A stretch of DNA of 27,697 nt from a virus. Made by a program: the position numbers and the translations under genes. The first letter of the stretch is position 1. The number at the start of each line of letters is the position of its first letter. Below are positions 4,634 to 22,496 of this stretch, piece by piece. The DNA lies in IMG/VR virus record IMGVR_UViG_3300008516_000118, positions 1-27,697 of that record; one strand, written 5' to 3'. Under the pieces are notes generated by a model that saw nothing but the letters and a program-made list of their open reading frames with translations, was not told the DNA's origin and searched no databases.

Positions 4634-4670
4634 TAGATGGTATGCAAAGCAAGTTCAGGAGGAATTAGAA

Positions 4671-6630: not shown

Positions 6631-6631
6631 A

Positions 6632-6865: not shown

Positions 6866-7089
6866 TGAATGAAAAACTGGAGTTGCAGATAGCAAAAGGT
6901 AAGAGAGTCCTCAAAGATATGAAGGACTCTCTTGAGTTTCTTAAACATCCAGCTCAACTATTAGATGTAGTAGAAGAGCTTGACGTTGTGAGAGCTTTTC
7001 TAACTTCAACTATTTCTGGTATGGAATTCTGGGTTCAAATGAAAATAGATGAATGGGAGGCTAAGACAGATGAAAAGTGGAGTGAATGA
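6865..7089 (+). CDS. Small helical hypothetical protein, 74 aa
   Basis: ATG 6865 in a TAATG overlap, with CAGGAGAAGG at 6852-6861 as ribosome site. Predicted as two or three charged helices. No family recognised. An 11-bp perfect inverted repeat lies inside the coding sequence at 6901-6933. The stop lies 20 bases inside the following gene. Confidence 0.55.
   Translation: MNEKLELQIAKGKRVLKDMKDSLEFLKHPAQLLDVVEELDVVRAFLTSTISGMEFWVQMKIDEWEAKTDEKWSE
6901..6933 (+). repeat. Perfect 11-bp hairpin inside a coding region
   Basis: AAGAGAGTCCT at 6901-6911 is the exact reverse complement of AGGACTCTCTT at 6923-6933, with an 11-base AT-rich loop. No T-run follows, so it is not a standard terminator. 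It lies 36 bases after the start of the 74-aa gene and could slow translation or protect the message. Confidence 0.5.
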
Positions 7090-7600: not shown

Positions 7601-7925
7601 GTTTACGGATAAACTCAAGAAAGTATTCAAACGGTTATATGGAAAGCCTATGGATATTTATGAGGAATGTCTGCTTGATGCTCTGCCTGATGAATTGACT
7701 GAATTCATTTCTCACTCGGCTGATGCTGCCGATAAGATTTGTGACTTGCTTGATTTATTCAGGCAGCGAATGGCTCCGGATATTACTCAAAGTGAAGTAG
7801 CAGACTTGTCAGACTGGTTGCAAACCCAAGGAACAAAATATTCTGCTCGACTTATGTTATTGATTCGTGGTGTAAATATCATTATGGCCGCAATTGCAGA
7901 TTTAAGATTAAAACTATTGCCTTAG
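7575..7925 (+). CDS. Hypothetical helical protein, 116 aa
   Basis: ATG 7575 follows GGAGG at 7561-7565. The open frame begins at 7524 but the ribosome site decides for 7575. The product is mostly helical. The last 25 residues (LMLLIRGVNIIMAAIADLRL) are hydrophobic and may be an amphipathic or membrane-touching helix. No family recognised. It is the last gene before the 126-base intergenic region that holds the promoter. Confidence 0.6.
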   Translation: MNQVETKTKFTDKLKKVFKRLYGKPMDIYEECLLDALPDELTEFISHSADAADKICDLLDLFRQRMAPDITQSEVADLSDWLQTQGTKYSARLMLLIRGVNIIMAAIADLRLKLLP

Positions 7926-7950
7926 TCCAAACAATTCTTTTTATCTATTC

Positions 7951-7985
7951 CTTAAAGAGAAAAGTCTATCAAGACGCTCTTTAAG
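7951..7985. repeat. Inverted repeat in the intergenic region, possible terminator or operator
   Basis: CTTAAAGAG (7951-7959) pairs exactly with CTCTTTAAG (7977-7985). Inside, GTCT (7964-7967) pairs with AGAC (7972-7975) around a four-base loop, so a 13-pair imperfect hairpin can form. No T-tract follows on either strand, which argues against a standard intrinsic terminator. Its place just after the last gene of the accessory operon and 10 bases before the promoter suits a transcript end or a regulator-binding palindrome. Confidence 0.5.
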
Positions 7986-7995
7986 AAAATGAACA

Positions 7996-8023
7996 TTGAA
8001 CTCTATTGAATCGAGCGTATAAT
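7996..8023 (+). promoter_or_regulatory. Sigma70-like promoter
   Basis: TTGAAC at 7996-8001 and a perfect TATAAT at 8018-8023, separated by 16 bases. Transcription would begin near 8030 and read the lipoprotein and perhaps the whole packaging/head operon. It lies in the only intergenic gap of note between the accessory and structural regions. Confidence 0.6.
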
Positions 8024-8041
8024 TCTGCATTGCTTTGAAAC

Positions 8042-8135
8042 AGGAGGACTCATGCGGACTGACTCCGAAAACCATCTCTCGAATCGAGGTCTACACGCAA
8101 TCAGTCCTCCTAAAAAAGAATCCGCTTTTTTGCGG
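8042..8135 (+). promoter_or_regulatory. Structured 5' leader that can mask a ribosome site
   Basis: AGGAGGACT (8042-8050), a strong Shine-Dalgarno sequence ahead of ATG 8052, is the exact reverse complement of AGTCCTCCT (8103-8111). Just downstream AAAAAAG (8112-8118) can pair with CTTTTTT (8125-8131), while CCGC (8122-8125) can pair with GCGG (8132-8135). These last two overlap and are mutually exclusive. The layout suggests control of which start, 8052 or 8151, is used for the lipoprotein gene. Function is inferred. Confidence 0.4.
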
Positions 8136-8150
8136 GAAAGGAGAACAGTA

Positions 8151-8468
8151 GTGAAGTCGATGTTGAAGATGGTAGCGATTCTACTTTTTGTTATTTTAGC
8201 AATCAGCACGTCTGGTTGCTTTTTGACAATCACTCAGAATTTGAAGGACGGCTCCACGCTTCTCGTCTCTTCGTATGATTCGTTAACTGAGGATTATGAC
8301 AAGCTAAAATCCACAGTAGACATTTACGTTGCTGAGCCAACGGAAGATAATCTGAAGAAATACAAAGACACAGAGAAAATTTTTCGTGAAGGTTTCGATG
8401 CTGTTGGCATAGCAATAAAAGCAGAGGATGAAGTTATTCAATCGCTTAAATCTAAGAAGGAGAAATAG
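8151..8468 (+). CDS. Small phage lipoprotein, 105 aa
   Basis: GTG 8151 follows AAAGGAG at 8137-8143 and gives a typical signal peptide: basic start (MKSMLKM), hydrophobic core (VAILLFVILAIS), and a lipobox-like STSGC with the lipidated Cys at residue 23. The mature part is a short, charged helical protein. A longer in-frame start, ATG 8052 with AGGAGG, would add 33 polar residues in front of the signal peptide and might block export, so two products are possible. It has its own promoter upstream. Small phage lipoproteins with their own promoters are sometimes superinfection-exclusion or lysogenic-conversion factors; that role is only a suggestion here. Confidence 0.65.
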   Translation: MKSMLKMVAILLFVILAISTSGCFLTITQNLKDGSTLLVSSYDSLTEDYDKLKSTVDIYVAEPTEDNLKKYKDTEKIFREGFDAVGIAIKAEDEVIQSLKSKKEK

Positions 8469-8470
8469 CC

Positions 8471-8794
8471 ATGGGGCTTGACACACTAAAAGAAGATTTA
8501 GCTGACATGGTTAAAAAAGCAGTAGATGAAATTCAGGCAGAGGCTGGAGCAGATTTTGAACTTATCCAGACTGAGACAAAAGCAACATTGACTCAAATTG
8601 CTCAGGAGATTGCAAGCGGCAAATCCATCCAGGAAGTAATCGAGCACTATGATACAAAGACAAAAGCTCTTGCGGCCGCTGCATTATTCAAGCTTGCAAA
8701 AAATCAGCAGTCGGCGTTGACTCATCTTGAGTCAGTATTGAAAGGAATTACTGGTATTATTTTAAGGACGGTGCTTTTGAAGCTCACCGGATAG
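8471..8794 (+). CDS. Hypothetical helical protein, 107 aa
   Basis: ATG 8471 follows AGAAGGAG at 8455-8462. The product is almost all helix, acidic in the first half, and ends with a more hydrophobic helix (LKGITGIILRTVLLKLTG). It sits two bases after the lipoprotein stop, so the two are likely translated together. No family recognised. Its position ahead of the large terminase would suit a small terminase subunit, but no helix-turn-helix is evident and I do not make that call. Confidence 0.6.
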   Translation: MGLDTLKEDLADMVKKAVDEIQAEAGADFELIQTETKATLTQIAQEIASGKSIQEVIEHYDTKTKALAAAALFKLAKNQQSALTHLESVLKGITGIILRTVLLKLTG

Positions 8795-8802
8795 GTGGGC
8801 CC

Positions 8803-9066
8803 ATGACACACTATGCTCTTTCATCAAACAAGCCATGCAAGCTCTGTGGAAAAACCCACGGATACATCACTCATGCACATCGTATAATAATTGCCGATGA
8901 TAATTCTAAGTTTTTTATGGAGCAGTTCTGCAAGAAGCATTCTGCTTCTGAAGTAGTAGAAGTTGATTTGCCATTTCTTATCAAGAAACGAATTCTTCTG
9001 ATTGATATTCTAAGTGTGTTGAAGAAAATAGTTCCTTTGGAAAACAAAAATGGTTCAAGTGGCTAA
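8803..9066 (+). CDS. Small Cys/His-rich hypothetical protein, 87 aa
   Basis: ATG 8803 with GGTGGG just upstream. The first half has CKLCGKTHGYITHAH and later FCKKH, a set of Cys and His able to form a zinc site. The second half is a hydrophobic and basic helix (KKRILLIDILSVLKKIV). It overlaps the terminase start by 17 bases. A small terminase or terminase accessory role is conceivable from position only. Confidence 0.6.
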   Translation: MTHYALSSNKPCKLCGKTHGYITHAHRIIIADDNSKFFMEQFCKKHSASEVVEVDLPFLIKKRILLIDILSVLKKIVPLENKNGSSG

Positions 9067-11119
9067 GAAGAAAAAACTTAAACTAAAGAAGCTTAAAAAG
9101 AAACAAGCTCCTTGGCTTATTAGAAAGGGACAAAATCTTCGTAAGCACTTGACAGATAAGAATCAATGTCACTGGCATAGTGATGATGGCGTGCGTTGTA
9201 AGAATTTCGCAAAGAAAGGAAAGCAATACTGTCGGCATCACGAGGGAAAAGAGACTTACACAACATTAGTTGATTTTGATTTATGGGAAGAGATTCAGAA
9301 AGCTGGAATCAAGAAGAATGAAAAGCTTTTCTCACTCAATGAATATCCTCAGCTTATGGCAATATATAGAGATAGACATCCAGAAAAAGTGATAATGAAA
9401 GCGGCTCAGTGCGGAGTCACAGAATACGGAACTTTGTTTGGTGAGTTCTTTTTGAAGTTACATCGCGGTACATCTGTTATCTATACTCTGCCTTCCAGAA
9501 GTTTGGCCTCTTCAATTTCTAAGCAGCGTATTGATTCAATGCTTAACGAGAATGAGCGAGTTTTTCTCAACGTAAATAAAAAGGGAAATGTTCAGGTCAA
9601 ATATGATTCTATCTTTGAGAAGCAAATCAAAAACGGCTATCTTTTCTTGCAAGGAACTTGGAAGGAAGGACAAGCCATATCTGTTCCAGGCGATGTCTTG
9701 ATACATGACGAAATAGACTTTTGTAAAGGTGATATTCTCAAGAAGTTTAGAAGCAGAATAGGAAATTCAGATTATAAATGGATAGTTCAATTTTCAACTC
9801 CTACATATCCTGAGTATGGTATTCACAAAGAATTCCTAATGACTGACCAACATCATTGGTGGTACAAGTGTGAGCACTGTGGACATGTATTTATGCTTTG
9901 TTGTTCATGGCCTGACATTCTTCATTTTGATGAAGAAACAGGAAAACCGTTTTTCGGTTGCGTAAGTTGTCATAAAGAAATTGCAAGAAAAGAAGGATGG
10001 TGGAAGCCGCAAAATCCTTTAAGTTCTAAGCGTGGTTATCATGTAACTAAACTTGCGTCTCCTCGAGTTAGTGCTTCTCAATTAGTTGATGCTCAAGAAG
10101 AATACAAAACAGAAAAAGATTTCTGGAATTTTGAATTAGGTCTACCATATGCAGGAAGCGAGGACAGAATAACTATAGCAGATTTGGAAGCTTGCGAAGA
10201 TGGAAGATACCATCTCATGGTTCGTGAGCGTATGACTTGTGCAGGAGTAGACCAAGGTGGCAAAGCGATATACGTTGTAGTAGTGAAGCCAGGCAGAGAC
10301 AAAGACAGAATCATTTATGCTGACCACATTACTGGATTAACTTGCTGGGCGGAGTTGGCAGTCATAATAAATCAACTTGGAGTAATGCGTTGTGTTGTAG
10401 ACGCTATGCCGGATACATTCAAGGCAGGAGAGTTTCAAAGATTGTTCAAGCGAAAAGTTTATTTGGCTTATTATAATGAACGTTCAAAGGAAGGTGTGAA
10501 CTGGCAACCGACCAAAGGAATTGTCACTCTTAATCGAAGTACAACTCTTGATATGACAATGGAAAAAATTCGTAGAAGAAAAGTTATAATTCCAGTTTCT
10601 GATAAATTGATTGCTTTCAAAAAACACATGACGTCTTTTGTCAGAGTGAAAGAAGTTGATGACCAAACAGGTGAAATCAGATATGCTTATAAGAAAGTCA
10701 GAGAGGACCATTTCGGCCACGCGTATAACTATGCAAATGTGGCAGCATTGAAAATGGATATATCAAGTTTTCAAGTACACTCTCCATCAGAAAGAAAAAA
10801 GGATGCACGCAGTATAGCTGTTGGAAACTACGGAGATGAAATTATAAATCATCTTGCAGGACTGCTGCTTGATAATATTATCTCAATAGATATGCTTATG
10901 AATTATCGAATGCAAAAGACTAATGGAAAGTTTGTAAGTGAAATGGATTTGAGTTCTGATTTTAAACAGATAATGAGTACACTTGAACTTAAGTATACTG
11001 TGTCTAATCTTATAACTTCAATTCAGAATCTTGAAATTGTGAAAGATAGAATCAAAATAATTCAGGAAGCAAGACGACAAAAGGCAATTGAAGGAGAAAG
11101 CAATGGAAGGGAAGAATGA
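9050..11119 (+). CDS. terL: Phage terminase large subunit, GpA-like, 689 aa
   Basis: This is the ATP-driven DNA-packaging motor and genome-cutting nuclease at the portal vertex. A Walker A-like KAAQCGVTEYG (117-127) replaces the classic P-loop, as in the lambda gpA family, and Walker B is DVLIHDEID (215-223). A zinc ribbon inside the ATPase region (C274, C277, C304, C307) is typical of GpA-like terminases. The RNase-H-fold nuclease begins at AGVDQGG (D401), with a second acidic site at CVVDAMPDT (D451) and a later EDHFGHAYNY. Unusual is the N-terminus: a Lys/Leu-rich stretch (residues 5-19) and a separate zinc finger (C40, C50, C61, H64 region). No recognisable small terminase gene is adjacent, so this N-terminal part may contribute DNA recognition. 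ATG 9050 lacks a strong ribosome site, and GTG 9059 is an alternative. Confidence 0.9.
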   Translation: MVQVAKKKKLKLKKLKKKQAPWLIRKGQNLRKHLTDKNQCHWHSDDGVRCKNFAKKGKQYCRHHEGKETYTTLVDFDLWEEIQKAGIKKNEKLFSLNEYPQLMAIYRDRHPEKVIMKAAQCGVTEYGTLFGEFFLKLHRGTSVIYTLPSRSLASSISKQRIDSMLNENERVFLNVNKKGNVQVKYDSIFEKQIKNGYLFLQGTWKEGQAISVPGDVLIHDEIDFCKGDILKKFRSRIGNSDYKWIVQFSTPTYPEYGIHKEFLMTDQHHWWYKCEHCGHVFMLCCSWPDILHFDEETGKPFFGCVSCHKEIARKEGWWKPQNPLSSKRGYHVTKLASPRVSASQLVDAQEEYKTEKDFWNFELGLPYAGSEDRITIADLEACEDGRYHLMVRERMTCAGVDQGGKAIYVVVVKPGRDKDRIIYADHITGLTCWAELAVIINQLGVMRCVVDAMPDTFKAGEFQRLFKRKVYLAYYNERSKEGVNWQPTKGIVTLNRSTTLDMTMEKIRRRKVIIPVSDKLIAFKKHMTSFVRVKEVDDQTGEIRYAYKKVREDHFGHAYNYANVAALKMDISSFQVHSPSERKKDARSIAVGNYGDEIINHLAGLLLDNIISIDMLMNYRMQKTNGKFVSEMDLSSDFKQIMSTLELKYTVSNLITSIQNLEIVKDRIKIIQEARRQKAIEGESNGREE

Positions 11120-12542
11120 CGCGCCGCGTCAAGCTGGACGGATGGAAATCCAGCTTATATCCCGAGACAGAACTCAACTTCAGGTGAGTGATTCTCGACG
11201 TGAGTATGTAGAGCGGGATTCAAAGAAAGGACTGAGATACCGAAGATACTATTTGGAAACTGAGTGGCAGATTATCCAGACAAAACTTTTGTTTTACGAC
11301 ATTTGGAAAAAACATCCTTGGATTCGTGCTCTTACAAACAAGATTGCTAATATTGCTATTACTGTTGGATGGTTCATTGACTACACTGGAGCTGGCAAAG
11401 CTACTCCAGAAGAAAAGAAACGCATTGAAAACTTTTTCATGTATCCAAATTATCAAGAATCATTTTCAGATATACTCTGGAAAACAATAGTGCAATTGAA
11501 AATATTTGCCGAATCGTTTTGGGAAATGGTTAAGAGCCGAAAAGGTTATCCGATAGATTTTTATATTCTTGATGGAGCTGTCAGAGTTTGTCTTGATGAA
11601 CACGGCAATCCAGGGAGTCCGGCATACGTTCAGAGAGTATTCAACGACACGGCTGAATTTGAATATGACGAAGTAATTTATTTTAAGTTTCCTGACCCCA
11701 TAGGAAAAGTTCATCCATCTTCAGAACTCGAAGCTCTTGAACTTACTGTTCTTACTGACGTTTATGCAATGGCTCTGAACAAGACTACTTTTACACAAGG
11801 TGTCAGAAAAGGGAAAGCGTTTATTTTCCCAGCGGATACTGGCCCTGAACAGATGAAGCGCAACAGGGAGCAAATAGATAATCTTCACTCAGGAATAATT
11901 GGTTCGTATTCTGCTTTCGTTGCTCTCGAAGGAGAATGTACAGTTCAGGACCTTAAGCTTACTGAAGAGAAAATGGAAGCTAAAGACCTGCGTGAATATC
12001 TCCGCGAAGAAATGGCAGCAGTAGTTGGAACACCACTTTCAAAAGTTGGAGTCAACGCTGTTGATGTAAAGGAATCTCAATATGTCGACAAATCATTTTG
12101 GCAGGAGGAAGTGCAGCCACTAATTGATTTGGTTGCAAACACAATAAATCGTTATCTTGATTTGCTTGGCATATATGATTATAGATTCAAGTTCAAGAAA
12201 TTTCCGATTAGAGATTTGAAAGAGACGGCAAGATTGATTGACGTGCTCAAGAAGCACGGTGCAATTTCAACGGATGAAGTAAGAGAAATGGTTGGCTTAG
12301 ATACTTTGAATACAGCGTCGAGCAAGAAGCCGTTTCTTGTTACGCGTGATGGCACTATTATTTTCATTGATGAAATTGAGAAAGAGAAAGCAAATATTGA
12401 TGCTGTAAAGAAAGAAGAAAAAGCAAGTGCGTTTCCATTCCAAATGGGCCGTCGTAGGATTGCACGCAAAGGCGCGACACTTCCTGCTACTGAAGAGACT
12501 GCCGCTGAAGAGGAGGAAGCGGCTCCGGACCCTTTTCTTTAA
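11103..12542 (+). CDS. Phage portal protein, 479 aa
   Basis: ATG 11103 follows AAGGAGAAAG at 11091-11100. An in-frame TTG at 11088 is less likely. The gene follows terL with a 17-base overlap. The sequence shows portal features: a charged N-terminus with LTNKIANIAITVGWFI, the wing/stem region with FEYDEVIYFKFPDPIGK and a Gly/Ser-containing SSELEALE, the helix that continues DVYAMALNKTTF, then LREEMAAVVGTPLSKVGV and a long C-terminal helix. This matches the HK97/SPP1-type portal superfamily that forms the dodecameric DNA channel. The C-terminus ends in an acidic Ala/Glu tail. An 8-bp inverted repeat lies near the start (11131-11156). Confidence 0.87.
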   Translation: MEGKNDAPRQAGRMEIQLISRDRTQLQVSDSRREYVERDSKKGLRYRRYYLETEWQIIQTKLLFYDIWKKHPWIRALTNKIANIAITVGWFIDYTGAGKATPEEKKRIENFFMYPNYQESFSDILWKTIVQLKIFAESFWEMVKSRKGYPIDFYILDGAVRVCLDEHGNPGSPAYVQRVFNDTAEFEYDEVIYFKFPDPIGKVHPSSELEALELTVLTDVYAMALNKTTFTQGVRKGKAFIFPADTGPEQMKRNREQIDNLHSGIIGSYSAFVALEGECTVQDLKLTEEKMEAKDLREYLREEMAAVVGTPLSKVGVNAVDVKESQYVDKSFWQEEVQPLIDLVANTINRYLDLLGIYDYRFKFKKFPIRDLKETARLIDVLKKHGAISTDEVREMVGLDTLNTASSKKPFLVTRDGTIIFIDEIEKEKANIDAVKKEEKASAFPFQMGRRRIARKGATLPATEETAAEEEEAAPDPFL

Positions 12543-12688
12543 TCTACTCAATTCTGGCCGAGAGCAGAATTAGTCCTGAGGACCTGGCTGATTTTCTCAG
12601 TGACGTATACGGCTCAGTCTTAGATGGACAAGCTGCTCTTAAAGATGCTCAATTCAGTTTCACGCGCTCCAACTCTGTAGATAAAATA
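12543..12688 (+). other. Open, coding-like stretch in frame with the head morphogenesis gene, no usual start codon
   Basis: The frame of the Mu-F-like gene stays open upstream of its ATG 12689 back to a TGA at 12506-12508, across the 146 bases between portal and that gene. It reads like protein (SRISPEDLADFLSDVYGSVL and onward) but contains no ATG, GTG or TTG. Only ATT/CTG/ATC-type codons could start it. Possible explanations are a rare start codon, a -1 frameshift from the end of the portal gene, or an eroded N-terminus. Confidence 0.45.
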
Positions 12689-14269
12689 ATGATTAAGTCA
12701 GATGAAAATCTTGTTGCTGATTTCGATAGAATCAAAAAGAAAACAATCAAGACATGGTTGGAAGTTGCACGAAAGAAGAAACTTCAAACTGGTGCGGAGG
12801 AAGCTAATATAGTCATTGATACGTCTGTATCTGGAAATGAACTTACAGTTTCGGTTGTCCAAGGACACAAAGCAGGATTTCTTTATGGCTTTGGTGAAGT
12901 AGCATCTGGGCTTGGCTTCAAGCCAGGAGATGAAGGCAGAGTTGGAAAGTTTGATTTTGATTACATGTCTCCTGAGACTTTCAATCGAGCAAAGCAATCG
13001 GCAAGAAGAATTTCAAACAAGACTATTGACGGCATGATGAAAGGCGATGCTAAAAAGTTTGCAAGACGCAATGTGCGTAACATTGTCAAGGAAGGAATCA
13101 GAACAGGAAAGAGTGATACTGATATTGCAAACGAGATAGGTCAGTTCTTTGATGATTCAAAGTATTGGAAAGCGGCAGAGATAACGAGAACTGAAATTCC
13201 TCTTGCTTATAACTATGGCCGTATTGATGCTGCTCGAAAAGATGGATTAACTAAAGCACGAATATATCTTGGAGGACGTCCTTGTAACTGGTGCATTGAT
13301 AACCATCTTGATGTCAGGACGTTGGACCAAGCCGAAGCATATATGAATGCGCATCATCCAAACAATGATTGCACGGTTGTTCCACTTATTGACTTTGATT
13401 ATTATGGCATTGAGCCACCTGAAGGATATTATGAAGGCGATGAAGGTCCGCTTGAGCCTCCAATAGCTAAGCCTGGAAAACCAAAGGCACCTCCAAAGCT
13501 TATACCTCCAGTAATTCCTAAAGTCCCGCCTCCTGCCGTTGCTCCTGCGGTTCCTGCTATGCCTCCTAAAGCTCCACCAGTTACTATTGACCCTAAGAAA
13601 GTTGGTGACCTTCCAAAAGAAACTTCAGCTAAAAGAGCAGAGCGAAGAATAAAAGAGTTTGAAGAAAAGAGTAAAATTACAGCTCCTAATAAAAGCTCTC
13701 AAGAATTCATCAATGAAACGAAAGAACGTTTTGGGATTCAGTTTAATAGTGGAAAATATTACAAGCAGGATAGAGTTCAAGCTTTTTTAGATTCGTTGGA
13801 AAATTTACACAAAAATCTGGATACGAAAATACGCAAAAGATTGTATAAAGGTAATTTGCTAACAGTACAATCAGCAACACCAGGCAATGAAATTGGTTCA
13901 AGAGTGCTTGGTGATTACTGGGAAAAAGGACGTTTATTAAGAGTCAATGAAAAATGCAGATTGACAAGAGAGATAACTAAATGGATGCCTAAAGCTCGTC
14001 CAAATCTATTGAGAGAATCTTACGAGTGGGTTTCAACGCATGAATATGGACATCATATTTATCAGACTGGACTAACAAAATCCATCAAACAAAAATGGTT
14101 TGGAATTTGGTCAACTGAACCGAAAAGAATTACTATGTACGCAAGCAAAAATGCGGCAGAAGGATTCTGTGAATCACTTGGAGCTTATATGCGAAGTCCT
14201 AAAGCTCTAAAGCAAACTTCTCCAGAGGCATACGAGTTCATTAAAAAATACATAATGGCAGGAGGATAA
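12689..14269 (+). CDS. Mu-F-like head morphogenesis protein fused to a zinc metallopeptidase domain, 526 aa
   Basis: Residues about 100-235 match the Phage_Mu_F / SPP1 gp7 minor head protein: helices ending in ITRTEIPLAYNYGRIDAA, then RPCNWCIDNH (C199, C202) and AHHPNNDCTVVP (H222/H223, C228), the family's zinc-binding Cys/His set. A Pro-rich linker (about 243-300) follows. Residues 335-526 form a second domain with HEYGHH (451-456), an HExxH zincin motif, and downstream Glu residues (E491, E495) that can be the third ligand, as in gluzincin-like peptidases. Mu-F proteins join the portal and are often carried into the capsid with variable C-terminal toxins or enzymes. This fusion suggests a packaged or maturation protease. 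No clear ribosome site precedes ATG 12689; see the open stretch upstream. Confidence 0.8.
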   Translation: MIKSDENLVADFDRIKKKTIKTWLEVARKKKLQTGAEEANIVIDTSVSGNELTVSVVQGHKAGFLYGFGEVASGLGFKPGDEGRVGKFDFDYMSPETFNRAKQSARRISNKTIDGMMKGDAKKFARRNVRNIVKEGIRTGKSDTDIANEIGQFFDDSKYWKAAEITRTEIPLAYNYGRIDAARKDGLTKARIYLGGRPCNWCIDNHLDVRTLDQAEAYMNAHHPNNDCTVVPLIDFDYYGIEPPEGYYEGDEGPLEPPIAKPGKPKAPPKLIPPVIPKVPPPAVAPAVPAMPPKAPPVTIDPKKVGDLPKETSAKRAERRIKEFEEKSKITAPNKSSQEFINETKERFGIQFNSGKYYKQDRVQAFLDSLENLHKNLDTKIRKRLYKGNLLTVQSATPGNEIGSRVLGDYWEKGRLLRVNEKCRLTREITKWMPKARPNLLRESYEWVSTHEYGHHIYQTGLTKSIKQKWFGIWSTEPKRITMYASKNAAEGFCESLGAYMRSPKALKQTSPEAYEFIKKYIMAGG

Positions 14270-14270
14270 A

Positions 14271-14570
14271 ATGACTCTGTATAAAATCAGAGACGTCGAG
14301 CAAGAAGATAAGCTTGGAAATAAAGAGGAAGTGATTGCAGCAATTATAGAAGTAGAAGATGAAAAAATTTCGTTGAAGGATGGATGGCAAGCAATCAAAG
14401 ATATTCTTGCTGCTCCTGCAATTGCAACGCTTACTGGAGGAGAGCAAGAGGACGGAACATACGAAGAAAGCGGAGAAGTCAAGCCTGGTGATGAAGGATA
14501 TTTTCAAGCTTTCAAAGATTTGCTAATAACTCAAGGATTCATTGTTGAAGAAATAAAGAAAGAGGAATGA
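14271..14570 (+). CDS. Small hypothetical protein, 99 aa
   Basis: ATG 14271 follows AGGAGG at 14260-14265 and begins just after the head morphogenesis stop. The product is acidic, with an alternating strand/helix look (VIAAIIEVEDEKISLKDGWQ) and a Glu/Gly-rich middle. No family recognised. Small acidic proteins at this place in head operons are common and poorly understood. Confidence 0.6.
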   Translation: MTLYKIRDVEQEDKLGNKEEVIAAIIEVEDEKISLKDGWQAIKDILAAPAIATLTGGEQEDGTYEESGEVKPGDEGYFQAFKDLLITQGFIVEEIKKEE

Positions 14571-14654: not shown

Positions 14655-15344
14655 ATGCCACCTAAGGGCTATAAACAACATGAGGAGACAAAAGAAAAAA
14701 TAGCTGCTTGGAATAGAGGTAAGAAAAGAAGTACTCAGACCAAAGCAAAGCTATCAAAAGCTTTGAAAGAGAAATGGAAGGATAAAGTTTATCGAAAGAA
14801 GTTGATTAAAAAAGCACAAGGACGGAAGTTGAGTACAGAGCATAAGAAAAAAATTTCTCAGTCTTTGAAAATAACAAGAGCAGAAAAGAAGTTTAGTTCT
14901 GAACGCAACAAGAAAGTTTCTAAAGGCTTGAAGCAATTTTGGGCAAGTCTTACATCTCAAGAAAAAACTGAACGCTTGAAAGGATTTATACAGGCGGGCG
15001 CAAGAGCAAGAGGATTTTTCAATACTAAAATAGAACAAATAACAGAGGCATTTCTTAAACGTATAAAAGTTGAGTATACAAAGCAGAAGATGTTTTGTTC
15101 TGGAAATAGAAGAGCAATTGGTGACTTCTATCTTCCAAAATTCAATTTGGTATTGGAGTGTGATGGAGAATATTGGCATTCAGTGTTAGAACAAAAACAA
15201 AAGGATAAAATGAAAGATAGATTTTATCATAGTCTTGGACTGAAAGTCATAAGACTAAGCGAAAAGGAAATCATTAACAATCTACGATATTCTTTTTTGA
15301 AAAAACTGCGATTGATTCTTGTGAAAAGAAAAGGAGTGGCCTAA
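14655..15344 (+). CDS. Free-standing homing endonuclease, NUMOD3 repeats plus Vsr-like nuclease, 229 aa
   Basis: Residues 1-105 consist of repeated short basic helical motifs of NUMOD3 type (HEETKEKIAAWNRGKK; KLSTEHKKKISQSLK; SSERNKKVSKGLKQFW) that contact DNA. Residues 120-225 form a PD-(D/E)xK/EDxHD-type nuclease: TEAFL, then IGDFYLPKFNLVLECDGEYW followed by His, then a helix and LGLKVIRLSEKEIINN. This matches the Vsr/DUF559-like homing endonucleases that cut intron-less or intron-containing alleles to spread by repair. It lies between two head genes and shares a TAATG overlap with the next gene, so it is a mobile intruder co-transcribed with the operon. Activity is probable as all key residues seem present. 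Confidence 0.82.
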   Translation: MPPKGYKQHEETKEKIAAWNRGKKRSTQTKAKLSKALKEKWKDKVYRKKLIKKAQGRKLSTEHKKKISQSLKITRAEKKFSSERNKKVSKGLKQFWASLTSQEKTERLKGFIQAGARARGFFNTKIEQITEAFLKRIKVEYTKQKMFCSGNRRAIGDFYLPKFNLVLECDGEYWHSVLEQKQKDKMKDRFYHSLGLKVIRLSEKEIINNLRYSFLKKLRLILVKRKGVA

Positions 15345-18300
15345 TGGCTGAAGTTCCTAATATTGCTTCAATGGATTTTAAGAAAGTTGATGATGAAGTT
15401 TTATCCAGAAGTTTCAATACTGTCAATGCTTGGTATGCTTCAATCAAGCAAGGTAAAAAACTCAAACATTCTTTAGACACTATTATTCGTTTGGGTGTGC
15501 AGATAATGACCGAGTTGTTGCGTAGAGGAAAAGTAACTTTTCATCCTGAAGAAATGAAACAGGTATCTCGTGAATTCTCTGCTAAGGTGCTTGATAAAAT
15601 AGTAAAGCAGAAAGTAAACGTTGAGCCGCCTTACGGAGATTTGATAGCAGAAGGCAAAGCCAAAGGATTACTTCTTGGCGAGGATATCCCGCTTGATAAG
15701 ATATATCTATTTGTGCAAGACGGAAAAGCTTTGGGATATGTTCGCTTTGGTGCAATGCCATCAATCGAGAGCAAGCCAGGTTCTGGAGCAGCGTTTGGAA
15801 CTTACCATTATAAAATTGTTGGAGATGATTTTAAGAAGTATCAAAAGATTCATCGCGTATCGGATGAAGAAAAAGAGCAACTTTGGCCTAAGAATAAAAT
15901 ACTTTGGCTTTATCCGGTACGCGACTTTTTTCCATTAGATAAGCCTATTCAACTTTCAACAAATCTTGATACGACTCTGCCTGAAGGATTGAAGCCAGAA
16001 GATTTGACTCCTGATTATCTAAAGCAAATTAACAGCATGACGCTTGTCAAGATTCACGGCTGGTTGCATTCAGGATTCTTTCAAGCTCAGAAAAGAAAAG
16101 AAGCTATTGAAAGATGGGTAAATGCACATGCGTTTGTAGTAGATGAAATGATAAACAGAAAAATGGAACATCGTCCTTGGTCAGAGCTTGATGAATTCTC
16201 TAAACAATATCAGACTCATAAGTTTGAAAGAGCCATTGATTATCTGCAAGATTTTCTGATTCGTAAGCCTTATGCTTTGGCTGCTGGCTCTGTCTTTGTC
16301 TCAGGTGAAGGAAATGATTTGGATGTGGTAATAAGAGATGAAGAGAATCAGTATTTCAAAGAAGCTGTTCTTCACTTCATGTCTAAATCTAATCTTAAAG
16401 CTGATATGGTTTTTGGTGCTTGGACTTCATCTTTCACAAACAATGTTTCACTATATGATTATGGATTGACTCGAAATCCGAGAAGTGAAATGTTCCTCTC
16501 TAAGATAAAACTTCATGGACTTGATTTACAATTACCTTCGTTTGTAAATTCACAGCCAAGAGTGTTTATCAAACAGCGTGATACAAAGTTGCTTTTCTGG
16601 ATAAGAGAAGATATAACAAAAGAAAGAGATGGAATTGTAGAGTTTAAAATCAAGCAGATGCTCCCGCTTTATTATGATGCTAAATTTGATTATGGACTTT
16701 ATGTTCCATCAGATTATAAGCCGATATACTGGGATGTATATCTTAGAGAGCCAGAGCCTGAGATGATTACTATGTCTATTGTTCAGAGCAGACATGAAGT
16801 TAGACTTGCACGTGGTATAAAGATAATGAGATATTTTCAAACTATGAAGCCTGCAAAAGCAGCAAAGCCAGGAGAGCCGGCTACGTTTGATTTCTATCTT
16901 GCTGTTTTTAAGTCGAGAGATTTCCCTGTGTTTTTGCAAAAAAAATACGACGGAGCTAATCTTGAAATTCATCGTTCTGGAAATGACGTAAAGATATGGA
17001 CTGAGGACGGAGTTGATGTCACACATCGTTTGCCAGGAACTGTTGAAGAAATAAAGAAACTCAATCATAATAAGTTTGCTGCTCTTGCTGAGGCAGAATT
17101 TTGGAAAGGAAAGTTTCATTATCCGAGAGAAAGAGCCGCTGGTTATCTCATGTCAAAAGATAAGCCAGATGATTCTAATATCGTTTTGAATTTTTATGAT
17201 GTAGTTGCTACTGGGTCTCATGGAGACGTATCAGGAAAGAACATGATTGAAAGAGATAAAGTTCTTGATACGTTTGATTTCAAGCAGTCCACAATTGGTG
17301 TGCCTGATTTGAAATATAGATTGAATCGTGCTCCAAGCAAGATGGCAAAGAACGCAAGTGAATTGAAAACAAAATCAGAAGAGTTGAGATTTGCTGCTGG
17401 CTCAGAAGGAATAGTTGCTAAGCCGTTTTGGGGAGTCTATGATTTATCTGGTAGAAGAAAAGAACAAATCAAATTTCATAACTCAGTCATCTTTGTTGCA
17501 AGAGTGTTGAAGCGAAATCAAACAAAGACGCCCGGAGTGTATACTTATAAATGGGCTATAAAATCTGGACCGCTTAAAGCACGAGAGCAACACGCTGTGA
17601 TGATAAACAATGAAGAATATATTCATGGTGGCAATACTGATTCTACTGATTTCAAATTGAGCAAAGGTGATTTGATTGTCATCGAAGCAGAAACATTCAA
17701 TAAAGTTTATTATGAGAAAGATGATACTGTTAAAGTTTCTGCTTGGGTTCCTCGCGTGCTTGAACAAAAAGCAGATAAGGGAGTTGATTCAGTAAAGAGT
17801 GTGATGAAAGAAGCTCAGAACAATCGTGTATTGACAATCAAGAAAGTTCACAAAGATGGCTCTGAATCTTATCTTCCACAAGAAGCTTTCAAATTGAATA
17901 CTGAACATACAGCTTTATTGCGCCTATCTGCTCTTGAGGAAGAACATGGTATATTACCATTGATTGAGAGCTTAGAGGACATTAGGACCGAAGAGGAGGC
18001 CATTTTACAGAGGTATTCAAGGGATATTCCTGTGCCGTCCGATATCAAAGCAAAAGAGAGCAAGTGGAATTCAATCTCATTAGATGAACTTGAAAAAATG
18101 AATCCAAGTAGTTTGCCGAAAGGATTTTTTGTTATTGTCGACCATTATCGTGGTAAGAGTGTACATGGGGATTTAAGAGGCAAGGAAAATGGTACGGCAG
18201 ATGGCTGGACAATATCAAATGCTTGGGCAGGAAAGATAAAAGAGCCAGTTGATTCTTTCAGTGAAGCTCAAGCGATTCAATCAGATAAATCTGTTTGGAA

Positions 18301-19351
18301 ATTCAATCCTGATATGCCACCAACTAAACATGTGTTTGCTACTCCAAAGCCTCCGCATCCTTTAGGCTGGTTGACTCAAGTCAAGAACATTCATAAGGAA
18401 GGAGAAGTTGGAGCCACTCGTTTTGAAGAAGGATTGTTTTATGGAAAAGACTGGGGCTTACGCTATCACGGTGCAGGAGGCAAAGGCTCTCATGGAACTT
18501 CAAAGCCTTGGTTCTTTGAGTATTTTCTGCGCGGAAGAAAATTCAATTGCAAGATAGTTTTCAGATTGCTTGAAGCTCCAAAAGGTGGAGGCAGAAAAGT
18601 AGAGAAAGGAATTTTCTGGCAAGCTTGGATTGCTAAAGACCAGTTTCCATATATCCTCACTCGCTCAGCAAGAACAAAAAGAGATTGGCTACCGCCACAT
18701 GGGCGTTCTGCTATTCCTCCTGAATTAGAAGTTCTAATTCCAAATGAATTGAAATGGTGGAATCTTCCCAAAGGTCATTCAAAAGAAAAGATGCTCGACA
18801 CAATTGACAAAGCTTATAATCACTTAATTGATGAAGGATGGATTGCAGCAAGAAAACTTCCAGTGCGCGAAGAACAAACGCAATCTTTGGAAGGAAAGAA
18901 AGTTCCTTTCATACTTCAATATGAGTGGTGGAAAGGTCCTGAAGTAATTAGAGGCATGAGGCAGAACAAATTTTTCATCAAGCTTCAGGACAATTCAAAT
19001 GTTCAAGCAATATCTTTCCTTGAGAAAAAGCCAGTGTTGACAACAGAAGATGCTGGCATTGCAGCAACAATGCACAAAGTTTCTCACGGACCAAAACGTG
19101 GAATGAAGCCAATAGACTGGATGCGATTTGAAGGAGAGATAGGTCCGGGTGAGCCTGGACATCCTTTAGAAATAAAAAAATTGCCTCTACATGTAGAAAT
19201 TATGGACAGAGGTAGTGTTCAAGTTATTGAGGATGGAGAGCTTTTCAAATCACTTCAGTTTGATGGCAAACTCTTAAAGGGATATTACGTTATGAGACGT
19301 GAAGGTCCAGATTCCAAACTATGGGTTTGGCAGAAGTCAAAGCTTCCATAA
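15344..19351 (+). CDS. Nucleotidyltransferase - ATP-dependent ligase - LigD-phosphoesterase-like fusion, 1335 aa
   Basis: ATG 15344 with GGAG upstream, in a TAATG overlap. Residues 312-400 show a Pol-beta-type nucleotidyltransferase motif: GS (315-316), then DLD (325-327), and a later LDL (393-395) as third acidic site. Residues 525-720 are a covalent nucleotidyltransferase core: motif I KYDGAN with K534, motif III-like FYDVV (617-621), motif IV EGIVAK (688-693), motif V QIKFH with K710. An OB-like part follows (about 716-808). Residues 926-960 give H934-x6-H941-x-D943-x-R945, the signature of the LigD 3'-phosphoesterase (H-x5-H-x-D-x-R), and 1257-1335 match its end (FEGEIGPGE, MDRGSVQVI, GKLLKGYYVMR). 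A ligase plus end-cleaning domain suits strand-break repair, as in bacterial LigD. Placement between head genes suggests the protein may be packaged. N-terminal 300 residues are unassigned. Confidence 0.8.
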   Translation: MAEVPNIASMDFKKVDDEVLSRSFNTVNAWYASIKQGKKLKHSLDTIIRLGVQIMTELLRRGKVTFHPEEMKQVSREFSAKVLDKIVKQKVNVEPPYGDLIAEGKAKGLLLGEDIPLDKIYLFVQDGKALGYVRFGAMPSIESKPGSGAAFGTYHYKIVGDDFKKYQKIHRVSDEEKEQLWPKNKILWLYPVRDFFPLDKPIQLSTNLDTTLPEGLKPEDLTPDYLKQINSMTLVKIHGWLHSGFFQAQKRKEAIERWVNAHAFVVDEMINRKMEHRPWSELDEFSKQYQTHKFERAIDYLQDFLIRKPYALAAGSVFVSGEGNDLDVVIRDEENQYFKEAVLHFMSKSNLKADMVFGAWTSSFTNNVSLYDYGLTRNPRSEMFLSKIKLHGLDLQLPSFVNSQPRVFIKQRDTKLLFWIREDITKERDGIVEFKIKQMLPLYYDAKFDYGLYVPSDYKPIYWDVYLREPEPEMITMSIVQSRHEVRLARGIKIMRYFQTMKPAKAAKPGEPATFDFYLAVFKSRDFPVFLQKKYDGANLEIHRSGNDVKIWTEDGVDVTHRLPGTVEEIKKLNHNKFAALAEAEFWKGKFHYPRERAAGYLMSKDKPDDSNIVLNFYDVVATGSHGDVSGKNMIERDKVLDTFDFKQSTIGVPDLKYRLNRAPSKMAKNASELKTKSEELRFAAGSEGIVAKPFWGVYDLSGRRKEQIKFHNSVIFVARVLKRNQTKTPGVYTYKWAIKSGPLKAREQHAVMINNEEYIHGGNTDSTDFKLSKGDLIVIEAETFNKVYYEKDDTVKVSAWVPRVLEQKADKGVDSVKSVMKEAQNNRVLTIKKVHKDGSESYLPQEAFKLNTEHTALLRLSALEEEHGILPLIESLEDIRTEEEAILQRYSRDIPVPSDIKAKESKWNSISLDELEKMNPSSLPKGFFVIVDHYRGKSVHGDLRGKENGTADGWTISNAWAGKIKEPVDSFSEAQAIQSDKSVWKFNPDMPPTKHVFATPKPPHPLGWLTQVKNIHKEGEVGATRFEEGLFYGKDWGLRYHGAGGKGSHGTSKPWFFEYFLRGRKFNCKIVFRLLEAPKGGGRKVEKGIFWQAWIAKDQFPYILTRSARTKRDWLPPHGRSAIPPELEVLIPNELKWWNLPKGHSKEKMLDTIDKAYNHLIDEGWIAARKLPVREEQTQSLEGKKVPFILQYEWWKGPEVIRGMRQNKFFIKLQDNSNVQAISFLEKKPVLTTEDAGIAATMHKVSHGPKRGMKPIDWMRFEGEIGPGEPGHPLEIKKLPLHVEIMDRGSVQVIEDGELFKSLQFDGKLLKGYYVMRREGPDSKLWVWQKSKLP

Positions 19352-19687: not shown

Positions 19688-19726
19688 ACGAGCAACCCTA
19701 AAGTTTTTGACAAGGAGGTTGCTCGT
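19688..19726 (+). promoter_or_regulatory. Hairpin covering the start of the protease-scaffold gene
   Basis: ACGAGCAACC (19688-19697) is the exact reverse complement of GGTTGCTCGT (19717-19726). The 10-bp stem includes the first two bases of the GTG start (19725-19727) and the last two of the AAGGAGG ribosome site (19712-19718); the rest of the site lies in the loop. No T-run follows, so it looks like a translational control element rather than a terminator. Confidence 0.6.
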
Positions 19727-21116
19727 GACCAAGACAGCCGCTAAACCAGCTTTGATTTTAAGACGCAAACTTGCGTTAAAAGTTGGTGTACACAACGGCA
19801 TCAATTATTCAGAGGATGAAGTACGCAAGCTTTATCTTCGGTACCAGCAACTCGAGTCCAAGCCTTTTGAGCAACTCTCAATGGAGGAAGTACACGCCTT
19901 CGATTTATTCAAAGGTGGAGATGAGGACCACAAAGACTCAACTGGGACTTGGGTCGGAAGCGTCAAAGATGTGTACTGGGATGATACGTCAAAAGGATTT
20001 GGATTTGACAAGTGGAATATCGTAGATGAAGATTTTGCGAGAAAGATTGAATTTCAAAAGTCACGCGGTAAAGCTTCGTTTGGAGTTTCTCCGCGTTTGA
20101 ATGTGTTGCGCAAAGGAACAGATGCAACGGATATACTTCCGAAGAATATTGGCATCGTCTTGAATCCAGCAGGAGGCGAGGATTTGATGCTGAGCAGAGA
20201 TTCGGACAATGCTGATTATGAATTAAGGGAAGATATAATTCAAGAGTTGACACTGTCAGAACAAGAGTCCATTCAAAGAGGAGGAGAATTGAACATGGAC
20301 GAGAAGCAGATTGCGGAAGCTCTCGGTAAAGTTGGCGAAGCGATTGAAGGAATCAATACTAGGCTTGATAAAGTTGAGAATGCAAAGAGAGAAGCAGAAT
20401 TAAAAGCTAAAGAAGATGAAATGAAACTCAAATGCGAGGCTCTTGAAGCCGAAAAAGTAAAGCTTGAAACTGAGCTGGCCAAGAAGAAAGAGGAAGAGGA
20501 AAAGATGCAGGCCGGCAAAGGTAAAGGCAAGGACAAAGAAGATGAAGAAAAAATGAGTGATGAAGAAAAAGCAGCACTCGCCAAGAAGAAAGAGGAAGAG
20601 GAAAAGATGCAGGCAGGTCCAGGCAAAGACAAGAAGTACAAGTATTACGGTGCCGCGTCTGCCAGGGATTCTCTCCTGAAGAAATTCGCTGTCACTCCGG
20701 ACCTTCGTCTCATGGACGAGCAGTCCATCAATCGCGTTGCCGAGGACATCGTAAACGCGGCTAAAATTTTCGATGCAACTTTCACGCTTGAGAAAGCACA
20801 GAAAGGCATCGAGGAACTTCAGGCAATTCTTTTGAATCTGCCTTCAAACGCGCAGGAAGAGAAAGCACTCATGGAGCACGTAGAGGAAACTCTTTCGAGC
20901 GTAAGCCAGCAGATTGTAGGCAAACTTGATGATAAATTGAATTCGGGTTCAAGTCAGGGCAGAAGAAAAGGTCTCGTCCTTGGTGATGAAGAGGGAAGAG
21001 CAGACGAAACTCTTTCTGGAAAAGGAAATTCCGGCAATCAGAATCAGCCGGTCACCAAGCAGGATGTATTGAATGACATTTCTTCGAGCCTTTGCAAAGG
21101 ACTCGGAATCAAGTAG
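19725..21116 (+). CDS. Prohead protease - scaffold fusion, 463 aa
   Basis: GTG 19725 is chosen because AAGGAGG (19712-19718) sits six bases before it. The in-frame TTG 19707 lies upstream of that site. The first about 170 residues are a protease-like domain resembling XkdF-type phage serine proteases: DEDHKDSTGTWVGSVKDVYW supplies a candidate catalytic His and GKASFGVSPRL a candidate Ser. From about residue 190 the protein becomes a long Lys/Glu coiled coil (NAKREAELKAKEDEMKLKCE) with a repeated KKKEEEEKMQAG unit, then a C-terminal helical part, typical of scaffolding proteins. Protease and scaffold in one frame just before the major capsid gene is a common head layout. A strong internal ribosome site allows a separate scaffold product from 20295. 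Confidence 0.75.
   Translation: MTKTAAKPALILRRKLALKVGVHNGINYSEDEVRKLYLRYQQLESKPFEQLSMEEVHAFDLFKGGDEDHKDSTGTWVGSVKDVYWDDTSKGFGFDKWNIVDEDFARKIEFQKSRGKASFGVSPRLNVLRKGTDATDILPKNIGIVLNPAGGEDLMLSRDSDNADYELREDIIQELTLSEQESIQRGGELNMDEKQIAEALGKVGEAIEGINTRLDKVENAKREAELKAKEDEMKLKCEALEAEKVKLETELAKKKEEEEKMQAGKGKGKDKEDEEKMSDEEKAALAKKKEEEEKMQAGPGKDKKYKYYGAASARDSLLKKFAVTPDLRLMDEQSINRVAEDIVNAAKIFDATFTLEKAQKGIEELQAILLNLPSNAQEEKALMEHVEETLSSVSQQIVGKLDDKLNSGSSQGRRKGLVLGDEEGRADETLSGKGNSGNQNQPVTKQDVLNDISSSLCKGLGIK
20277..20297 (+). promoter_or_regulatory. Internal ribosome site and ATG for a nested scaffold protein
   Basis: AGAGGAGGAGAA (20277-20288) precedes an in-frame ATG at 20295-20297 inside the protease-scaffold gene. 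Translation from here would give a 273-aa protein (start MDEKQIAEALGKVGEAIEGI) containing only the coiled-coil scaffold part. Nested scaffold starts of this sort are known from lambda C/Nu3. Confidence 0.6.
20478..20614 (+). repeat. Two copies of a 35-bp direct repeat in the scaffold region
   Basis: The 35 bases at 20478-20512 recur identically at 20580-20614, period 102 bases. Both encode AKKKEEEEKMQAG. The repeat lengthens the coiled coil and is a likely site of length variation by recombination. Confidence 0.75.
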
Positions 21117-21161: not shown

Positions 21162-22496
21162 GTGAACTCGATGTGGGATTTGATTCAACAGCGGGCTTCG
21201 GCAGAACTTCGCGGAGTTCGGCAGGAGCTTTCACTGGCTCTTGATACGACTACTGGTGGAGCACTTTCGCCAGAGTCTCTTGAGCCAAAGATTGTTGAGT
21301 TAGTCCGCAAGCTATCTCCGCTGGTAGCTGGACTGACAGTTATTCAGGCAGACGGAAAGACTCATGAGTACAATGAGAGAAGCGCACTTCCGTCCGCTGC
21401 ATTCGAAGGCGAGAAAGCTGTAACTGGAACTTCGCAGTCTACTTATACACGTAGGCCAACTCCTCTGAAGATAATCAGAGCAAGGGGTGGAGTCACAGGA
21501 TTCCAGCAGGCAGCGTCAAGGAAGTTCGTAAATTCTTATGTTAAAGAAATCGCTGGAGCCGCTCAGGCAATGGCGTGGGGAATGGAATTTGGCGTAATGT
21601 GGGGCAACGCAACTTCGGACCAGTATCAGTACGATGGCCTCGACACGAAGATTATTACAAATAGACTTGAGAGAAATGCAGTTGTTACTCTCAGGCATCT
21701 TGATGAAGTCATTGATGCGATAATTGGAGTGGGTGCTCTCGACCCATCAAATATGGCGTTCTATCTGAGTCCTCAGATGCACTCGAAAATTTCCTCGCTT
21801 GCTACTGAAGTGAGAAAAAATCTGCCAAGAATCAAGTACCCTGGCGGTCTGGAAATGGAGTCCTATCGAGAGATAGCACTCGTTGATTCTTCATTCTGCA
21901 AGCCCACCTCCCAGATGGGTGTAGTCACTGCTGCGGACGATGCCACGGTGGGTGGCTTAATTGCTGCTACTCAGTATCGTTACAAAGTTGCTGCCGTTAC
22001 TCGCTTCGGTGAACAGTGGGCAGGTGCAGAAGTAACGCACACCACAGGAGGCGGCATCACTTCAATCAAGCTTTCATTTACAGCTGTAGCCGATGCACAG
22101 TTGTACAAAGTGTACAGGACAATCGGAGGTGGCGGAGTAGGAACGGAAGTTCTTGCTGGAATATATGCTGCAAAGACGTACGATGGTGATGGAACTATCA
22201 CAGGTTACGTCGCCAGCATAATCGACATTGTTGCGGATGCTGCTCTGGGAACAGACACTCCGCTGGATTATACAAATCGTGAAGAGACAGTTTTCCTCGT
22301 GAATCGTGACCCTGAAATCTCGACAGAGATTGCGGGACTTATGAATGAGCAAGGAGAGAAAGTACAGAATCTGATTCAGATGCTTCCTCTTGCCAGGGTT
22401 AAGGACCAGGAAGAATTCTTGCTCCTGAGCTATCAGGCACTTATTTATAAGGGCGATATATTCAATGGTTTGCTGAGGCGCCTACGCACAGCGTAA
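21162..22496 (+). CDS. Major capsid protein, HK97-like, with Ig/FN3-like insertion, 444 aa
   Basis: GTG 21162 follows AAGGAGAA at 21147-21154. Position after the scaffold and before the connector genes, length, and the pattern of an N-terminal helix, ESLEPKIVELVRKLSPLVAG, a strand-rich P-domain-like part (TPLKIIRARGGVTGFQQAAS) and an A-domain part (NMAFYLSPQMHSKISSL) fit the HK97-fold capsid. Residues about 252-370 look like an inserted beta domain: TQYRYKVAAVTRFGEQWAGA, then SIKLSFTAVADAQLYKVYRT, a typical FN3-like strand arrangement, after which the core resumes with REETVFLVNRDPEIS. Such domains on capsids can be surface-exposed and bind carbohydrates or cells. Base composition is more GC-rich than the flanking genes, fitting high expression. 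Confidence 0.82.
   Translation: MNSMWDLIQQRASAELRGVRQELSLALDTTTGGALSPESLEPKIVELVRKLSPLVAGLTVIQADGKTHEYNERSALPSAAFEGEKAVTGTSQSTYTRRPTPLKIIRARGGVTGFQQAASRKFVNSYVKEIAGAAQAMAWGMEFGVMWGNATSDQYQYDGLDTKIITNRLERNAVVTLRHLDEVIDAIIGVGALDPSNMAFYLSPQMHSKISSLATEVRKNLPRIKYPGGLEMESYREIALVDSSFCKPTSQMGVVTAADDATVGGLIAATQYRYKVAAVTRFGEQWAGAEVTHTTGGGITSIKLSFTAVADAQLYKVYRTIGGGGVGTEVLAGIYAAKTYDGDGTITGYVASIIDIVADAALGTDTPLDYTNREETVFLVNRDPEISTEIAGLMNEQGEKVQNLIQMLPLARVKDQEEFLLLSYQALIYKGDIFNGLLRRLRTA

Follow-up and report, generated by a model that had tools for sequence, protein, structure and literature searches.

The window analysed here is a stretch of 27,697 nucleotides, the IMG/VR virus record IMGVR_UViG_3300008516_000118, and all coordinates refer to it unless another contig is named. 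Among its head genes, on the plus strand, lies an open reading frame (ORF) at 15344..19351 which starts with ATG, has zero internal stops and encodes a protein of 1335 amino acids. According to the ORF itself, Pfam and local hidden Markov models (HMMs), a nucleotidyltransferase (NTase), a DNA ligase and two copies of a phosphoesterase (PE1 and PE2) are fused in it. The first-pass annotation of this DNA had seen three motif sets in one intact frame, namely the GS...DxD of an NTase, those of a ligase and those of a LigD-type phosphoesterase (PE), and all of them are present. Its broader idea, that a LigD-like set had been joined with a different kind of nucleotidyltransferase in a head operon, was borne out as regards both the domain types and their linkage; its further step, a virion-carried system that seals or repairs the genome on entry or during packaging, is a putative function. 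An identical protein (100% identity) is encoded on an 88.6-kb IMG/VR contig (L009).

Domains of the fusion protein

The ligase part (residues 490-829, 16811..17830, plus strand) comprises adenylation and OB domains and was recognised by Pfam, structure model, fold match and conservation. It carries the sole Pfam match of the whole protein, DNA_ligase_A_M at residues 521-711 (E 1.5e-8), and a PDB sequence search with the 1335-aa protein found archaeal DNA ligases at 532-711, the best of them with E 0.0019. The nucleophile K534 (16943-16945, plus strand) was placed by column conservation: over 58 clusters of relatives this column holds lysine in 55, with two gaps and one glutamate, and further ligase columns are kept in 58/58 (E688), 58/58 (K693) and 57/58 (K710). 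Ligase and PE were modelled together from a 39-row alignment, with a mean predicted local distance difference test score (pLDDT) of 82 and a predicted template modelling score of 0.49, the ligase part lying mostly above a pLDDT of 90. Compared with human DNA ligase 1 this part gives Z 25.1 and a root-mean-square deviation (rmsd) of 2.8-2.9 over about 304 residues, which together with the Pfam match supports the earlier proposal of a ligase fold in residues 520-810; with archaeal ligases Z reaches 23.5-25.6 at rmsd 7.9-14, as with differently placed domains. The structure-search matches of the ligase-PE model were taken up by ligases. Judged from sequence and model, the domain is an ATP-dependent DNA ligase with adenylation and OB fold, the motif I lysine and motifs IV and V. 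It is closest to archaeal and eukaryal DNA ligases, which counts against a simple LigD chemistry. In one relative (L073, 7601-13345 of its contig) two ligase cores stand within a single 1914-aa protein.

Behind the ligase lie PE1 (residues 926-1108, 18119..18667, plus strand) and PE2 (residues 1187-1329, 18902..19330, plus strand), the latter a degenerate second copy without metal ligands in this protein; both were assigned by hhalign. The reference set consisted of 15 PEs picked by motif pattern from 17 LigD_N loci in genomes of the archaeal phylum of L104, a relative described below. Against this set the family PE1 gave E 4.7e-16 (123 columns, probability 98.7) and the family PE2 E 7.5e-16 (106 columns, probability 98.6), while seven control pairings with unrelated families stayed at E 0.15-0.52; these E-values apply to single comparisons. 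PE1 against PE2 gave E 1.8e-5 with probability 78. In PDB profile searches the structure 3p43, presumably an archaeal PE, as would fit the structures of archaeal PEs that a LigD review names, was matched by PE1 and PE2 together (E 3.8e-6) and by PE2 alone (E 7.5e-7); PE1 alone found only 3p4h (E 0.084), and a sequence search with the 1335-aa protein gave a weak 3p43 match at 1256-1331 (E 0.08). Single proteins of the family score under the Pfam LigD_N cut-off. On the profile alignments, the homology spans the entire LigD-type PE domain.

The metal motif H934-x6-H941-x-D943-x-R945 is present in PE1, meaning that the LigD ligands His42, His48 and Asp50 as well as Arg52 are kept, and the pattern H..HxDx[RM] recurs in PE1 of 50/55 clusters. 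It is missing in three clusters of the L087-L103 type, in L039, whose stretch starts past the motif, and in L078, which is apparently mis-cut. The corresponding PE2 pattern H..HxDx[RF] is found in only 5/41 clusters and is absent from PE2 of the 1335-aa protein. The suggestion of a LigD-type phosphoesterase holds for the homology and for the metal residues, and has to be amended in its architecture: a single split PE was rejected in favour of two tandem copies by profile alignment. The C-terminal half of the first copy is at about 1000-1108, and the "matching C-terminal block" at 1257-1335, once taken for that half, belongs to PE2.

The NTase core (residues 304-375, 16253..16468, plus strand) was recognised by motif, model and hhalign. 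Its G315, D325 and D327 show no variation across the 41 rows of an alignment; beyond those rows the DxD is lost in L045 and L057 and altered in L039. The model of the N-terminal part has a mean pLDDT of 66.7, with 67-79 across the NTase, and compared with minimal NTases it gives Z 6.6 (HI0073) and 6.1 (MNT antitoxin), under the line of 8 below which caution is due. The G[GS]..DxD signature of the pol-beta superfamily is present in a fitting predicted fold (Z below 8). In hhalign PolX (5.7e-5) and MNT (1.4e-4) were matched over 25-26 columns, and TdT/PolX entries of the PDB reached E 0.38-1 only. As PolX and MNT-type relatives are not told apart by hhalign, a polymerase role is no more than possible.

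The N-terminal region comprises two copies of a helical repeat of one family, found by iterated HMM searches (residues 12-73, 15377..15562, and residues 226-284, 16019..16195, both plus strand), and between them a beta domain (residues about 105-205, 15656..15958, plus strand), for which the model and VIA tentatively indicate an ASCH/PUA-like fold. Its VIA matches, TTHA0113 (Z 6.2), which we take to be ASCH-type, and ASCH of Z. mobilis (5.2-5.4), are under the same caution line of Z 8, and the HMM of this domain also matches 15 other ORFs. Copy 2 of the helical repeat resembles a ribosomal L29-like helical hairpin in the PDB with Z up to 7.8, which means little. A pyrimidine-dimer glycosylase was considered for the repeat on account of Pfam Pyr_excise matches in three relatives (E 8e-4, 0.026 and 0.049) and dropped, as these are too weak and the repeat stands twice in this protein and mid-protein in relatives.

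Head module and relatives

The head module runs in the order terminase, portal, MuF-like protein, 99-aa ORF, HNH-like gene, fusion gene, putative protease/scaffold and capsid. PHROG matches on the plus strand mark the terminase large subunit (9050..11119, phrog_675, E 2.6e-95), the portal protein (11088..12542, phrog_2662, E 3.4e-38), a MuF-like head protein with a C-terminal zincin-like peptidase region (12689..14269, phrog_2468, E 5.4e-8), an HNH/homing-endonuclease-like gene (14655..15344, phrog_559, E 5.2e-12) and the major capsid protein (21162..22496, phrog_212, E 7.7e-17). The 99-aa ORF (14271-14570) lies between the MuF-like and the HNH-like gene, and the latter shares one base with the ATG of the fusion gene. 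The earlier placement of the fusion gene between MuF and protease/scaffold is right as to the head module, with the correction that the 99-aa ORF and the HNH-like gene intervene after MuF. Pfam matches of the MuF-like protein (Mu_F 0.0063, zincin family 1.9e-4) are each short of their cut-offs, and tblastn of 50,697 phage records returned zero matches to it at 1e-5. Its C-terminal part contains an HExxH zincin-type motif, as known from polyvalent-protein operons.

The gene at 19707..21116 (plus strand) is called a putative prohead protease/scaffold from its position and from an N-terminal match (E 3e-12) to the pre-capsid gene of L104, which itself weakly matches a "head maturation protease" PHROG (E 0.0021). 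A further match of its product is to a section of a protein in L101 that bears XkdF. The label protease/scaffold, already used in the first-pass annotation, keeps the support of the L104 match and lacks a family match of its own; the protease of the window would putatively be this gene. Elsewhere in the window two separate thymidylate-synthase relatives stand near each other (3881-4633 and 5363-6073, phrog_160, E 6.4e-8 and 9e-14), a MazG-type pyrophosphohydrolase lies at 7049-7600 (E 6.2e-6) and a DUF488 protein at 1747-2139 (E 3e-7).

Profile scans of IMG/VR gave 31 loci and then 80, and since these 80 were kept of 150 confirmed, the family is undercounted. After removal of repeat loci of the same contig, and with ANMV-1 and the virus of the window included, 84 loci have a ligase-core ORF; 83 of them fall into 60 clusters when grouped at 90% identity of the ligase, one locus has a ligase stretch too short to cluster, and L104 stands outside the set. 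Domains were named from Pfam scans of 28 relatives' proteins and with local HMMs built on these, and "near" means on the same strand within 8 kb. PE accompanies the ligase in 57/60 clusters (PE1 in the same ORF in 49, near in 8), the contigs of the other three ending inside the ligase ORF; where the two share an ORF, PE comes after the ligase in 43 clusters and before it in 6, and in 11 they are not joined in one ORF. An NTase was found in 51 clusters, fused in 40 and near in 11. The nine others comprise three cut at the 5' end, one with 1.3 kb upstream and five of one type (L087-L103 loci). PE2 is fused in 33 clusters, near in 9 and absent in 18. The protease XkdF is fused in 26 clusters and near in 7 (33/60), and was not found in 27, the cluster of the 1335-aa protein and ANMV-1 among them. 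Of the 42 clusters with over 4 kb of upstream sequence, 29 have a same-strand portal gene there, and of all clusters 47/60 have an upstream portal or XkdF. An apparent portal-ligase fusion in L063, L073 and L086 was rejected, the portals being separate overlapping ORFs.

Additional domains vary. Uracil-DNA glycosylase (UDG) is fused in 8/60 clusters, placed between ligase and PE1, and the D12 methylase is fused in 10 and near in 2; the counts, fused plus near, are 2+2 for C5 methylase, 2+2 for 2H/LigT and 2+1 for metallo-beta-lactamase. L009, which belongs to the same virus, also has a 191-aa UDG-like ORF of its own at 8370-8945 (local UDG HMM, E 6e-8), and the virus of the window seems to keep as a free gene what is fused in some relatives. 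A LAGLIDADG/intein-like insertion (E 1.9e-13) was seen in a D12-methylase protein 5' of the ligase gene of L034 (5318-8887 of that contig).

In scans of genome contigs for proviruses, 81 pattern stretches yielded no relative and 39 yielded one, L104. This contig is labelled as an Aenigmatarchaeota metagenome-assembled genome and may be a mis-binned virus. Head genes of a virus occupy 4158-13751 of it, with matches for terminase (E 2e-55), portal (2e-19) and capsid (1.7e-17); terminase and portal come first, then the fusion, PE2, a protease-like gene and the capsid gene, an order that echoes the window. Its separate 254-aa PE2 keeps H..HxDxR. A search of 50,697 annotated phage records with the 1335-aa protein matched the ANMV-1 virus alone; with four other family queries ANMV-1 was the best covered in three, the rest being single-domain among the matches listed, and all that the fourth, of the L089 type, matched were five ligase genes of Bacillus phages, at about 27%. 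Terminase relatives among the matches listed belong to bacterial phages (24-27% identity). Host-marker HMMs run on 50 records, beside a control that is positive in all 14 genomes, found PCNA in 0/50, TBP in 1/50 (ANMV-1) and MCM in 4/50, two of these above the cut-off. The text of open-licence papers yielded no description of the family, and a search of open-licence papers for the ANMV-1 ligase found nothing. It can be said from the sequence comparisons that this family of head-linked DNA-repair-type fusions is real and widespread, its parts being rearranged among dozens of viruses, most of them uncultured, and that the combination is new as far as the searches show.

Possible functions

The domain make-up, the conserved linkage of ligase with PE and often with NTase, the head-module setting and the repeated fusion or nearness to a protease or portal gene are observed. 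The fusions with XkdF (26/60) and UDG (8/60) point to a head-linked protein acting on DNA: the module is likely made within the prohead because it is so often fused to XkdF, a head-linked protease, and the fused UDG and DNA methylases of relatives argue for DNA and not RNA as substrate. In the reading that we favour, at about an even chance, the 1335-aa protein is a head-packaged "polyvalent" polyprotein for repair of DNA ends and nicks, its virion location and activity being the inferred part. It would enter the prohead alongside the MuF proteins and the protease and would travel with the DNA; cleavage in flexible linkers (pLDDT falls below 50 in parts of residues 848-909, a possible linker) may separate its domains. 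The PE and NTase domains would prepare or fill ends and the ligase would seal nicks or join ends of the packaged or incoming genome. Most likely the module would process ends of the viral DNA and seal it, either during packaging or on entry. In relatives UDG would contribute base-excision type repair and the DNA methyltransferases protection.

Several results weigh against this reading. XkdF is not fused to the 1335-aa protein by Pfam scan; the product of 19707-21116 has no PHROG match at E 0.01 and a best Pfam match of only E 0.12, and the local XkdF HMM finds nothing in it, so that an XkdF identity for this gene was dropped. Besides the cluster of the 1335-aa protein XkdF was not found in 26 clusters, for some of them due to a contig end, and 13/60 have neither XkdF nor an upstream portal. 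The loci were collected by ligase motifs and confirmed by ligase-plus-PE queries, and co-occurrence of ligase and PE is therefore favoured. Ligase motif VI is poorly kept in the alignment (R804 is arginine in 30/58), and the NTase, in which a third carboxylate is not evident, could be a polymerase or a modifier of protein or small molecules. In PE1 the columns of His84 and Tyr88 were placed via hhalign and PDB profile alignments; these are phosphate-site residues essential in Pseudomonas LigD, according to the passages on that enzyme in PMC8656161. The Tyr88 column is tryptophan in 55/55 clusters, and the His84 column holds E 26, Q 19, K 4, I 3, H 2 and M 1 (n=55), the 1335-aa protein being one of the two with histidine. 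A 3'-phosphatase chemistry of PE1 is not assured because tryptophan replaces Tyr88 throughout and glutamate or glutamine stands for His84 in 45/55.

The enzymes might instead work in the infected cell, repairing nicks, gaps and 3' ends late, just before packaging, and be merely co-transcribed with the head genes and undelivered. A position in the head operon suggests late expression, the head-module ligase is the only PF01068 match on the 88.6-kb contig, and the 1335-aa protein has no fused protease. Head-maturation proteases, however, as a rule act inside proheads, and 26/60 clusters fuse the module to one; moreover, three relatives (G046-G048) have, apart from the module, another and shorter ligase frame (521-553 aa) on the same contig. 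We consider such late repair doubtful. A counter-defence effector, which after entry would re-seal or re-end viral DNA cut by host nucleases or would modify host factors via the NTase, appears unlikely. Polyvalent proteins have been proposed to act in this way in the main text of PMC5512222, and D12/C5 methyltransferases and 2H (LigT) domains are fused or near in some relatives; nevertheless the constant part is ligase with PE and not a methylase.

Repair of RNA, for example of host RNAs cut by defence nucleases, would make RNA-end enzymes of ligase, 2H and PE, and 2H domains do occur in a few relatives. The RNA_ligase Pfam matches of four relatives (E 8e-6 to 6e-3) stay under the cut-off, however, and DNA_ligase_A_M is far stronger in the same four (E 3e-23 to 4e-30); the structure fits DNA ligases with an OB fold, and UDG and DNA methyltransferases of relatives act on DNA, which leaves this idea very improbable. 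We give equally little credence to decayed domains making up an internal head protein with a structural or DNA-binding role: the rarity of the metal pattern in PE2 (5/41) would agree with decay, but the ligase columns are near-invariant over 58 clusters and the metal-site pattern of PE1 is kept in 50/55.

For the head-packaged repair polyprotein a wider claim can be made, tentatively and with somewhat less than even confidence, that many tailed viruses have a modular virion-borne repair machine of NTase, ligase and tandem PE. It would be Ku-free and produced as a single polyprotein, either joined to the protease or next to it, with UDG, methylase, 2H and metallo-beta-lactamase as swappable modules, for use on the packaged or incoming genome. 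If this is true, tailed viruses can repair their genome by head-shipped enzymes before any viral gene expression, and a set of natural fusions of ligase and end-processing domains becomes available, including a PE subfamily with an altered active site (Trp for Tyr88). Polyvalent proteins would be linked to DNA repair, and virion carriage of repair enzymes becomes a directly testable question.

Comparison with known systems

Like bacterial LigD, the fusion protein joins nucleotidyl-transfer, PE and ATP-ligase domains in one polypeptide and would combine end processing with sealing; the PE metal ligands and Arg52 of LigD are kept in PE1. Unlike LigD, the family has a pol-beta-type NTase replacing the LigD polymerase, tandem PE copies, a head-module context, tryptophan for Tyr88 and a mostly changed His84 in PE1, and a ligase nearest to archaeal and eukaryal enzymes. 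The LigD polymerase is of the primase-type class, and no LigD-type polymerase domain was found in Pfam scans of the 1335-aa protein or of the 28 relatives' proteins. Ku was found in 0/50 records, mostly fragments, by a search positive among the 14 control genomes in B. subtilis only. On this domain evidence the fusion protein is not LigD. Infection by the mycobacteriophages Omega and Corndog also relies on an end-joining ligase (Pitcher et al. 2006, as recounted in a passage of PMC7719229), with the difference that these phages supply Ku and use the host LigD, whereas the virus studied here encodes the ligase and Ku was not found.

The closest annotated relative is AJP62006 of the ANMV-1 virus (KP703175), an 866-aa protein whose NTase, ligase, PE1 and PE2 follow one another as in the 1335-aa protein, annotated just as "ATP-dependent DNA ligase". 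It is shorter, the N-terminal repeats and the ASCH-like part being unmatched, and neither portal nor XkdF was found nearby. BFVD entry A0A516LT18 (827 aa), the top viral structural match to the ligase-PE model (E 4.1e-27 over 699 columns, TM-scores low at 0.25), may be a further public relative. Descriptions of magroviruses list a DNA ligase among replication genes, in the relevant passages of PMC12999244 and PMC10160649.

The protease family seen in 33/60 clusters is also that of Lactococcus phage 28201 and Pseudomonas phage EM, in both of which XkdF is encoded between the portal and the capsid gene, without ligase or PE in the stretches shown. The annotation in these two cultured phages reads "head maturation protease" or "XkdF-like phage serine protease", and a jumbo-phage survey proposes in its passage on XkdF a peptidase processing head proteins (PMC7824862). 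Since PHROGs exist whose members look like fusions of XkdF with a methyltransferase or an RNA ligase, fusion of an enzyme to XkdF has precedent. From the polyvalent proteins (Iyer et al. 2017, PMC5512222) the family differs in content: in the main text of that paper "ligase" occurs three times, all in a passage on RNA ligase, and "glycosylase", "XkdF" and "LigD" are absent from this main text, where polyvalent proteins are also reported as few in archaea. The likeness is in design, as polyvalent proteins are described there as large and multidomain, with disparate enzymatic domains, predicted to be co-injected with DNA, and pol-beta NTase, 2H and zincin-like peptidases occur among them. The feature by which they are recognised, the union of several unrelated enzyme domains in a single protein of the head module, is found in the 1335-aa protein as well.

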